NCBI GenBank assembly: GCA_947461795.1 | Contig: CANHMG010000008.1 | Location: forward strand, 1-46,508 | Source of the DNA: Flavobacteriaceae bacterium | GTDB lineage: Bacteria; Bacteroidota; Bacteroidia; Flavobacteriales; Flavobacteriaceae | Length of the DNA: 46,508 nt | Direction: 5' to 3' | Shown here: positions 4,865 through 8,586 of the stretch, piece after piece | Position numbering within the stretch: the stretch's first letter is position 1 | How the letters are laid out: every line of letters begins with the position of its first letter | Notes under the pieces: model-generated | What the model saw: only the letters and a program-made list of their open reading frames with translations | What the model was told of the DNA's origin: nothing | Database searches by the model: none | Translations under genes and position numbers: made by a program

Positions 4865-5284
4865 TTATTTTTTTGAATGGTACGCCAGCGCATACATTTT
4901 AATTTGCTTGATCATCGAAACCAAACCATTGGCTCTGGTCGGTGACAGTTGTTCTTTCAATCCAATTTTGTCAATAAATTCAGTGTCTGCCTCTAGGATC
5001 TCCGCTGCTTTCTGATTGGAAAATACGCGAATCAAAATCGCAATAATTCCTTTAGTAATAATGGCATCACTGTCGGCAGTAAAGAGAATATTTCCGTCTT
5101 TTTCTTCACTGTGCAACCAAACTTTCGACTGACATCCTTTGATTGTATTATCGTCTGTCTTGTATTTCTCGTCGATGAGCGGAAGACTTTTCCCTAAGTC
5201 GATGGTATATTGAAACCGTTCGTCCCAATCATCAAACATAGAAAATTCATCTACAATTTCGTCTTGTATTTCTTTGATTGTCAT
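4865..5284 (-). CDS. sufE: Cysteine desulfuration protein SufE
   Basis: MTIKEIQDEIVDEFSMFDDWDERFQYTIDLGKSLP...KGCQSKVWL. Start set at MTIKEI. Confidence 0.92.
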   Translation of the reverse strand: MTIKEIQDEIVDEFSMFDDWDERFQYTIDLGKSLPLIDEKYKTDDNTIKGCQSKVWLHSEEKDGNILFTADSDAIITKGIIAILIRVFSNQKAAEILEADTEFIDKIGLKEQLSPTRANGLVSMIKQIKMYALAYHSKK

Positions 5285-5718
5285 TTTTCGGGAATGGCTA
5301 AAAGAGTGATGCAATTGACTAATTTTTCAATTTCCACAGGTGGATTTCCGTGATCAAACCCATTGGTTTCATAGGTTTTTCCTTTGTAGGTCACTTTTAT
5401 GTTTGCGATTGCCGCACCATCGTAAAACCTTTTCTCTGTTGGTCCTTTAAGGTTTGGAATGCCCTCCAAATCTACCTCTTGGAATGCGTCAATCATTTTT
5501 TTCCAATCTGACTTCGAAATGTTTTGCTGCACTAATTTTTCGTTGCCATTTCGGTCTTTTGTCGCCGTGAATTTCTGATTTTGAACCACGATTTGTTGAT
5601 AGAAACCTCTTGTCGTTGCTGTATATTCAATAACGGCAGTTTCTATATCTTGCTTTTGTTCGCTATTGCAACCTTTCCCAAGAAAAATGGTTAAAAATAA
5701 TAGGGATAGTAATTTCAT
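5281..5718 (-). CDS. Small predicted lipoprotein embedded in the SUF cluster
   Basis: 145 aa with signal and Cys motif (MKLLSLLFLTIFLGKGCNSEQ); ATGA overlap with the sufE start. Confidence 0.75.
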   Translation of the reverse strand: MKLLSLLFLTIFLGKGCNSEQKQDIETAVIEYTATTRGFYQQIVVQNQKFTATKDRNGNEKLVQQNISKSDWKKMIDAFQEVDLEGIPNLKGPTEKRFYDGAAIANIKVTYKGKTYETNGFDHGNPPVEIEKLVNCITLLAIPEK

Positions 5719-5728
5719 AATACTTCTT

Positions 5729-6943
5729 TTAGCTTAACATTAATTGTGCTTTTTTGACCGCTTCTACCATAACGTCTATTTCTTCTTTCGTATTATAAAA
5801 TGCAAGGGAAGCTCTGATCGTTCCTGGTATTTGATAGAAGTCCATGATAGGTTGTGCGCAATGATGTCCTGTTCGTACAGCGATTCCTTTTTTGTCGATA
5901 ATAGTTCCGATATCGTACGGATGAATGCCATCAATGTTGAACGAAATTACGGAAGTTTTTTCTTTTGCGGTTCCAAAAATTTTCAAGCCTTCTATTTCTA
6001 AGAGTTTTTGAGTTCCGTAATCGAGCAGCTGTAATTCTTGTTTCGCAATATTGTCAAAACCTATCGAATTCATATAATCTACGGCTACTCCAAGCACGAT
6101 TCCGCCAGCAATATTAGGCGTTCCCGCTTCAAATTTGTGTGGCAATTCTGCGTAAGTCGTTTTTTCAAAAGTGACGGTTGCAATCATTTCACCGCCACCT
6201 TGATAAGGCGGTAACTTATTTAGCCATTCTTCTTTTCCGTATAAAATTCCTGTGCCAGTTGGACCACACATTTTATGTCCAGAAAACACATAAAAATCAC
6301 AATCTAAATCTTGAACATCTGGCTTTAGATGCGGAACTGCTTGTGCGCCATCAATCAAAACGGCAGCGCCAACGGCATGTGCTTTTCGAATCATCTCGCG
6401 AATTGGATTGATGGTTCCTAAGGCGTTTGAGATGTGATTTACCGCTACAATTTTTGTTTTGGATGACAATAGTTTTTCGTATTCCTCTTGCATCAATTCG
6501 CCTGACTGATTCATAGGAATTACTTTCAAAGTGGCTCCAGTTCTTTCACACAACATTTGCCACGGCACAATATTGCTGTGATGCTCTAACGCAGAAACCA
6601 AAACCTCATCGCCAGATTTTACGATACTAGCAAAACCAGCCGCAATGATGTTGACACTATGCGTCGTTCCTGAAGTAAAGATGACTTCATGGGAATGTTT
6701 TGCGTTGATATGTTTTTGAATTTTTTTCCGAGATGCTTCGTATGCATCCGTAGCCAATTGACTTAAAGTATGAACACCGCGATGAATATTCGCATTGATT
6801 TCTTGATAATATTTCGCAATGGCATCAATGACGACTTGTGGCTTTTGCGAAGTGGCTCCGTTGTCAAAATAGACCAATGGCTTTCCGTTTACCGTTTGAG
6901 TAAGGATGGGGAATTCGGCTCTTATTTTGGAAATGTCAAACAT
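5729..6943 (-). CDS. sufS: Cysteine desulfurase SufS
   Basis: MFDISKIRAEFPILTQTVNGKPLVYFDNGATSQKP...SGHKMCGPTGTGILYG...RTGHHCAQP; the ORF extends to 6970 but this Met fits the family start better. Confidence 0.95.
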   Translation of the reverse strand: MFDISKIRAEFPILTQTVNGKPLVYFDNGATSQKPQVVIDAIAKYYQEINANIHRGVHTLSQLATDAYEASRKKIQKHINAKHSHEVIFTSGTTHSVNIIAAGFASIVKSGDEVLVSALEHHSNIVPWQMLCERTGATLKVIPMNQSGELMQEEYEKLLSSKTKIVAVNHISNALGTINPIREMIRKAHAVGAAVLIDGAQAVPHLKPDVQDLDCDFYVFSGHKMCGPTGTGILYGKEEWLNKLPPYQGGGEMIATVTFEKTTYAELPHKFEAGTPNIAGGIVLGVAVDYMNSIGFDNIAKQELQLLDYGTQKLLEIEGLKIFGTAKEKTSVISFNIDGIHPYDIGTIIDKKGIAVRTGHHCAQPIMDFYQIPGTIRASLAFYNTKEEIDVMVEAVKKAQLMLS

Positions 6944-7114
6944 AGTTTTTTCTGGAAAATCAACAAACAAAAGTAGTTGAATTGGATTAGAATTTTAGCA
7001 AACAGTTGTTAATAAATTCGATGCGACTTGTTGCATTTATTTGCTCGAGAAGACGCTAAGGCGCAAAGGATCTATTTTTGTTGTCCGCGTTTTTCAATTG
7101 ATTCGAGATGCCTT

Positions 7115-7212
7115 AGCCCCGATAGCAGCGGTATCCTTTTGTGCCAGGGTTTACTTCGTCAGTTCGTTCCGCTCGTGAGGCACAAAAGATTTAGCGAATA
7201 GCGGGATTAGCT
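7115..7212. repeat. Copy 1 of a structured dispersed intergenic element
   Basis: AGCCCCGATAGCAGCGGTATCCTTTTGTGCC...GGCACAAAAGATTTAGCGAATAGCGGGATTAGCT. Inner arms CTTTTGTGCC/GGCACAAAAG are a perfect 10-bp inverted repeat. Outer arms are shared with 24996-25092. Confidence 0.85.
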
Positions 7213-7220
7213 CCTAAAAC

Positions 7221-8537
7221 CTACAAATCAAATCCTATCTTAACGCCCAATTTAGTCGCTATAATTTTTGTAATTCGTTGTTTCAGTTCTGGTATTTTGA
7301 TGCTTTCGATAACTGCATTTGAAAACGCATACATCAGTAATGCTTTGGCTTCTTTTTTCGGAATTCCGCGCGATTGCATATAGAACATGGCGGTTTCGTC
7401 TAGCTGTCCAATCGTGCAACCGTGGGAACATTTGACATCGTCTGCAAAAATTTCTAATTGCGGTTTGGCATTGATGGTTGCTTTATCGCTCAATAAAATA
7501 TTGTTGTTCTTTTGGAAAGCATTGGTTTTTTGTGCTTCTTTTTCGACATATATTTTCCCGTTGAAAACACCTATCGCGCTATCAGAAAAAATGCCTTTAT
7601 AATCTTGGAAACTCTCGCAGTTCGGCTGTGCGTGGTGCACTAGCGTATAATGATCGACGTGTTGTTTTTCGCCAATAATGGTAATGCCGTTGAGATGACT
7701 TTCGATTCGTTCGCCAAAATGATAAAAGTTGAGATTGTTTCTCGTAAGGCTTCCTCCAAAACTGAAGGTGTTGACATGCACGCGACTTTCTTGTTGCTGC
7801 GACACGTAAGTATTGTCGATTAGAGACGCGGTATGATTGTCGTTTTGAATTTTGTAATAATCAACAATCGCTCTTTTTTGGGCGAAGATTTCGGTAACGG
7901 AATTGGTTAACACGGCATTTTCGTTGAGACTTTGATGTCTTTCAATAATTTGAACATGGGAGTTTTCGCCAACAATAACCAAGTTTCGCGGTTGAACCAA
8001 CAATGCGGCTTCGCTTCCGGTAGAGAAATACATGATTTCAATTGGCTTGTCGGTGACTTTGCTTTTTGGGATGTTAATATACGCTCCTTCGCTCGCAAAG
8101 GCCGTGTTTAAAGACGTCAGACTTTCTTCTTTGTTGGCGATGTGATTAAAATAATTGTCGATGACCATTTTGTATTTCGGCTTGTTTAGTGCCGAAGACA
8201 TCAGACAAACATCGATTCCGTCGTGCGTGGTAGAAGACAAAAACGAACTAAAAATACCGTCGATAAAAACGACCTTATAGGTGTCGATTTCGTGTAGGAA
8301 ATATTTCTTTACATCGGCAAACTGAATAGTGTTTTCATTTTTTGAAAAAACCGTAAAGTCATTTTTGAGCAATGAATTCAACGAAGTGTATTTCCACGCT
8401 TCCTCTTTTTTAGTCGGAAAACCTTTGCTTTCAAAATTTTGGATGGCAGAAGTTCTGATGTTGTGCAAATCTGCATCTACATCAACGCGTTCTTCAAATG
8501 CCATAAAAGAGGCGATGAGTTTTTCTTTTAATTCCAT
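7221..8537 (-). CDS. sufD: Fe-S cluster assembly protein SufD
   Basis: MELKEKLIASFMAFEERV...; '...FADDVKCSHGCTIGQLDETAMFYMQSRGIPKKEAKALLMYAF' is the SufBD core. Confidence 0.93.
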   Translation of the reverse strand: MELKEKLIASFMAFEERVDVDADLHNIRTSAIQNFESKGFPTKKEEAWKYTSLNSLLKNDFTVFSKNENTIQFADVKKYFLHEIDTYKVVFIDGIFSSFLSSTTHDGIDVCLMSSALNKPKYKMVIDNYFNHIANKEESLTSLNTAFASEGAYINIPKSKVTDKPIEIMYFSTGSEAALLVQPRNLVIVGENSHVQIIERHQSLNENAVLTNSVTEIFAQKRAIVDYYKIQNDNHTASLIDNTYVSQQQESRVHVNTFSFGGSLTRNNLNFYHFGERIESHLNGITIIGEKQHVDHYTLVHHAQPNCESFQDYKGIFSDSAIGVFNGKIYVEKEAQKTNAFQKNNNILLSDKATINAKPQLEIFADDVKCSHGCTIGQLDETAMFYMQSRGIPKKEAKALLMYAFSNAVIESIKIPELKQRITKIIATKLGVKIGFDL

Positions 8538-8586
8538 ATATCGGTAGTTGTAGGTCGTCATTTAAAAAACGAAAACCAGTAACGTT

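Follow-up and report, generated by a model that had tools for sequence, protein, structure and literature searches.

Flavo-1 (Rfam RF01705) is an RNA motif described by Weinberg et al. (2010; PMC2864571), and has been considered a candidate structured RNA of unknown function since 2010. It is abundant in most sampled Flavobacterium genomes and is filed by Rfam as "Gene; sRNA". In a transcriptomic study of F. psychrophilum, hits to the motif were found "indistinctly" in sense or antisense, with many situated outside of transcripts (PMC9723704). Two groups of palindromic DNA repeats are the closest described systems of another kind. REPINs combine conserved ends with a variable spacer and frequent compensatory changes (Bertels and Rainey 2011, PMC3116915), while atypical REP-like structures adjoin the TnpA_Y1 transposases of subclass 2.6 in Bacteroidetes (Quentin et al. 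2018, PMC6006769).

The stretch of DNA analyzed here, referred to as the window, comprises 46,508 nucleotides from a member of the Flavobacteriaceae. Two places within it are members of the already known Flavo-1 family. Both match RF01705 over its full length and exceed its gathering score of 42, such that the comparison with this family suggested by an earlier, sequence-only reading of the window proved correct. With an extended model (R1), copy 1 is found at 7103-7223 with 81 bits. The features of the two copies and of the genes that flank copy 1 are as follows.

7111 to 7212, + strand: Flavo-1 copy 1, full-length match to RF01705 (1-76), 64.1 bits
24992 to 25098, + strand: Flavo-1 copy 2, full-length match to RF01705, 68.2 bits
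7115 to 7134, + strand: left arm, with covariation in 31 and 110 copies
7118-7205, 7119-7204, 7120-7203, 7121-7202, 7123-7200, 7124-7199, 7128-7195 and 7129-7194, + strand: base pairs of the left arm
7125-7127 with 7196-7198, + strand: internal loop G.A / N.R / A.G
7136 to 7188, + strand: variable inner hairpin, stem 7136-7145 / 7179-7188
7189 to 7206, + strand: right arm, with covariation
7210 to 7219, + strand: conserved right border GCTCCTAAAA, judged from base frequencies at each position of the right flank (103 copies)
5729 to 6970, - strand: sufS-like cysteine desulfurase (TIGR01979, 601 bits), the next gene of the suf run downstream of copy 1
7221 to 8561, - strand: sufD (TIGR01981, 281 bits), its stop codon directly adjoining copy 1

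The arms of copy 1 had been noted to recur at copy 2, and indeed the left arm AGCCCCGATAGCAGCGGTATCC (7115-7136) is identical at 20 of 22 bases to copy 2 from 24996 onward, with two differences among the 23 bases of the right arm. This recurrence lies far above chance, as the next best place for the left arm on either strand of the window matches at 15 of 22 bases, the same value as the best found in 20 shuffled windows. Also correctly recognized were the inner stem CTTTTGTGCC/GGCACAAAAG (7136-7145/7179-7188) and the different stem that takes its place in copy 2. The outer stem does show the proposed change from A-T to T-A, although A7124 is paired with T7199 rather than T7200, an error of one position; T7123 is the partner of base 7200, an A. 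Similarly, the loops differ completely between copies 1 and 2 as had been stated, but similar inserts recur in other copies. The apex is variable among the copies (59 short and 44 long), with two insert types recurring in 11 and 12 copies, and the inner hairpin of copy 1 carries an insert related to a recurrent TTACTTCGTCAGTTCGCTTCGCTCG sequence.

The two conserved arms form a long interrupted hairpin that encloses the variable inner hairpin. Standard pairs fill 96.6% of the pair cells among 31 short copies, with two-sided changes in 109 cells compared with 37 in shuffles. In an alignment of 110 copies fitted to the model, these values are 96.8% and 372 against 106, and the signal is lost when partners are slid. 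The two outer pairs at 7120-7203 and 7124-7199 (in copy 1) occur in all four Watson-Crick forms, while individual bases of the internal loops are highly conserved. The proposal that pairing is maintained, rather than primary sequence, is thus strongly supported, and neither of the outcomes named beforehand as speaking against it, a lack of further copies or of covariation, was observed. When folded as RNA, single copies perform no better than shuffled sequence (z of 0.38 for copy 1 and -0.36 for copy 2). Accordingly, support for the structure comes from covariation and repetition, and it is a specific architecture, not stability, that is maintained.

Several variants of this architecture were encountered. 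A related hairpin with the Flavo-1 core and other outer arms is found in the same genome (C52:16987-17069, C45:6933-7022, C23:8413-8490 and C79:501-580), where the outer arms read GCGTGAGGGAT ... AGCCCGACCC ... TCACGCC, and further at L131:19704-19777, L113:20569-20628 and L134:19631-19690, suggesting a second family built on this core. In another variant, additional sequence resembling a hairpin (GATTACCTCACAAA ...) is present at the right arm (L121:11375-11517, and C52:8830-8933 and C39:13954-14028 of the same genome). In one species (L130:18050-18340, compared with L128:18400-18540), the Flavo-1 interior has apparently been swapped for a stretch of about 200 nt with the outer arms kept; an inverted repeat of its own, GCCTACCGTCTGGACAC / GTGTCCAGACGGTAGGC, delimits this replacement.

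The genome of the window (2.35 Mb in 129 contigs, 90% complete) contains at least 142 Flavo-1 copies, a lower bound obtained from 150 scored candidates, and nearly all of these lie between genes. Comparable numbers are found in the sister species G134 (145) and in G251 (121), which belong to the same lineage, whereas G010 and G275, at a somewhat greater distance, have 59 and 45 copies. Across the genus, 113 of 121 genomes carry the element, often in many copies, and eight carry none. In the phylum the distribution is patchy: the element is common in this genus, occurs in some of the family and in some of the allied families within the order and class, and is rare beyond. Copies within 5 kb of each other lie in opposite orientation in 25 cases and in the same orientation in 10, a count that pools two genomes and uses a distance chosen after the data were seen; such an excess would fit loss through recombination between direct repeats.

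With respect to genes, 54 copies lie in tandem, 18 in divergent and 11 in convergent settings, against 169, 55 and 31 among background spacers. No preference for the sense strand exists genome-wide, and in tandem settings 35 copies are antisense and 19 sense. Because the settings match the background and antisense copies are slightly more common, the placement is not that of a 5' cis-regulatory RNA or riboswitch. Targeting to the lagging strand was also considered and rejected, as orientations were 46 and 53 (p = 0.55) in the one complete genome used, G102, with ori assumed at dnaA and ter opposite.

Copy 1 had been proposed to be co-transcribed with the suf genes if these form one operon, and it does lie inside the suf gene run, with sufC and sufB located beyond sufD; however, the element is on the + strand and the suf genes on the - strand, so a suf operon transcript would hold the complement of Flavo-1. 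Its right border ends beside the sufD stop codon (7221-7223, - strand). In many Flavobacterium species, the spacer between sufD and sufS usually contains a terminator-like hairpin after sufD, where Flavo-1 is found here instead, and in some other species Flavo-1 sits behind an intact terminator-like hairpin. Beside copy 1, at 7050-7068 of the window, is a GACGCTAAGGCGCAAAGG-type sequence that resembles the arms of the terminator-like hairpins behind sufD elsewhere. On the REPIN-like reading set out below, the suf copy would be a passenger behind sufD and not a regulator of the Fe-S genes. Copy 2 lies in the spacer of two divergent genes, one phosphoglycerate-kinase-like (-) and the other resembling that for DNA polymerase III delta' (+).

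A comparison with G134, which is 88% identical at sufB, shows that sites are mostly common to the two sister species while the bodies that occupy them often are not. Both this genome (G000) and G134 are draft assemblies of many contigs. Among 35 sites with both flanks present in G134, a tally read by eye from the sequences, 29 have a Flavo-1 element in the corresponding position with its orientation kept, one has it inverted, four are apparently empty and one is unclear. Of 25 parsed site pairs, the inner hairpin is kept in 10 and different in 15. At four of the latter (C31:22090, C87:7038, C4:17168 and C68:6780), the four variable outer pairs have all stayed the same, as though the apex alone had been exchanged, while others among the 15 differ throughout. 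For 27 measurable pairs, the G134 body is nearer to a copy from another site in 17, clearly nearer to its positional partner in 6 and about equal in 4, though a best-of-92 comparison favors other-site copies and the ratio of 17:6 overstates the contrast. The low identities between positional partners are firmer: 16 pairs range from 0.46 to 0.77 despite flanks, largely coding, that are 77-94% identical. At C32:1528, identity is 0.56 to the positional partner and 0.96 to a copy from another site. Since most flank sequence is coding and the best of 92 copies is at an advantage, these data are suggestive of body exchange, not proof of it, and re-insertion at a preferred site could imitate the same pattern. 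Copy 1 is an exception among positional partners, being identical in G134. As the window from about 5000 to 8500 is also unusually similar to the corresponding locus of the sister species (L061; roughly 89-99% identity, versus 79-90% to its left), a recent recombination or exchange of the whole sufS-sufD region is suggested. No empty site that was clean and showed a target duplication was found; all five sites comparable with G010 are without the element there, one of them perhaps holding a relic.

Together, these observations suggest that the copies behave more like DNA repeats, with bodies swapped between fixed sites, than like regulators of neighboring genes. The choice between an RNA and a DNA hairpin, which the sequence-only reading had left open, thereby leans toward DNA without being settled. 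The best explanation, held with middling confidence, is that Flavo-1 is a palindromic DNA repeat, REPIN-like and non-autonomous, and that exchange between copies rewrites its body. Using pairing-blind pattern detection, 638 of 664 cells at the four variable outer pairs are Watson-Crick, with 7 G.T and 2 A.C, and this rarity of intermediates was counted in favor of exchange between copies. Covariation would be equally expected of an RNA, and is for this reason counted against the DNA-repeat reading. Ranked next, as a possible but rather improbable account, is that Flavo-1 is a true structured RNA, transcribed from the + strand by its own or an outside promoter, the hairpin of which is bound or cut by a protein. 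In addition to the strong covariation and the conservation of internal-loop bases, model-based alignments contain 57 G-U against 11 A-C combinations, a pattern to be expected of a + strand that folds as RNA. However, pairing-blind detection does not confirm this excess (7 vs 2, p = 0.18), which may thus partly reflect the search model, and G-U is rare at the variable pairs. The predominance of antisense over sense copies in tandem settings, along with the lack of orientation preference in F. psychrophilum transcripts (PMC9723704), also argues against an RNA.

The element might instead act on either strand as a barrier hairpin at mRNA 3'-ends, stabilizing the upstream mRNA or ending transcription in the manner of REP/BIME sequences. 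Tandem copies do follow the upstream gene closely (its stop codon is a median 14-22 nt away), Flavo-1 takes the place of the terminator-like hairpin after sufD, and at one convergent site it is found in two species where others have such a hairpin; from these two sites only, a 3'-end role is possible. Yet a T-run (five consecutive T in the 15 nt 3' of the element) follows none of 103 copies and is seen for 7 of 103 on the other strand, which also led to the rejection of Flavo-1 as an intrinsic terminator. The absence of enrichment between convergent genes, the many copies between divergent ones, the intact terminator-like hairpins that precede Flavo-1 behind sufD in some species, and the unexceptional stability of single copies make this role unlikely. 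Conservation of the Flavo-1 site itself across some 14 species at the convergent locus was rejected, since the remaining species have either a terminator-like hairpin there or sequence that is unrelated. Sites of the attC type possess conserved imperfect arms around a variable apical hairpin, and Flavo-1 agrees with them in shape. That it serves a tyrosine recombinase as a folded-strand recombination site, the variable hairpin forming the apex, is nonetheless very improbable, given that gene-cassette arrays are absent and the ORFs between neighboring copies look like ordinary housekeeping genes.

If Flavo-1 is indeed a REPIN-like repeat, we infer that copies would spread in bursts, in the form of single-stranded DNA hairpins on which a putative enzyme acts. 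After spreading, sites would stay, and exchange between copies, by short gene conversion or by template switching through the conserved arms, could swap the inner hairpin or the whole body, the incoming one mostly being another that is properly paired. A more specific form of this proposal, which we regard as doubtful, is that exchange is active and hairpin-dependent, and that a RAYT-independent enzyme replaces the bodies while the chromosomal sites themselves stay put, with covariation arising partly from this process rather than from selection on RNA. The family of RAYT or Y1 transposases (PF01797) is absent from the 90%-complete genome, only 2 of 30 strong PF01797 loci in the genus have Flavo-1 within 1.5 kb, and several Flavo-1-rich genomes lack PF01797 altogether; a RAYT/IS200 partner is not supported on these grounds. 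An autonomous master copy, with a transposase between close copies, was rejected, as the ORFs there look, judged from their sequences, like housekeeping genes. No paper on the dynamics of body exchange, or on a flavobacterial palindromic repeat beyond the papers cited here, was found.

Should Flavo-1 be mainly a DNA repeat that exchanges bodies, covariation alone would be no evidence of RNA function for such families, and Bacteroidota would have a mobilizing or exchange enzyme still to be discovered. Flavo-1 also offers a testable natural system for exchange among repeats of about 100 nt at dispersed sites.

Compared with known systems, Flavo-1 resembles the structures associated with TnpA_Y1 subclass 2.6 in its occurrence in Bacteroidetes, its hairpins without a canonical tag and its copies elsewhere in the genome (PMC6006769), but the weaker PF01797 loci sampled, which may or may not belong to this subclass, are not systematically flanked by it. 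With REPINs and REP doublets it shares many intergenic copies, conserved pairing ends that form hairpins, a variable spacer and common compensatory changes. Unlike these, it has no linked RAYT gene and no demonstrated GTAG/CGTC tag, GTAG being absent from its consensus, although many copies show AGGAGC on the - strand, a few bases beyond the hairpin foot; its arms also contain several internal loops, and its bodies are apparently exchanged between sites. In contrast to the filing of RF01705 by Rfam, neither the orientation of copies nor the data on body exchange suggests a simple sRNA gene. Both copies nevertheless share the arms, internal loops, variable apex and Bacteroidota host of Flavo-1, and the greater variability of the inner hairpin relative to the 76-position model does not amount to a difference at the family level.
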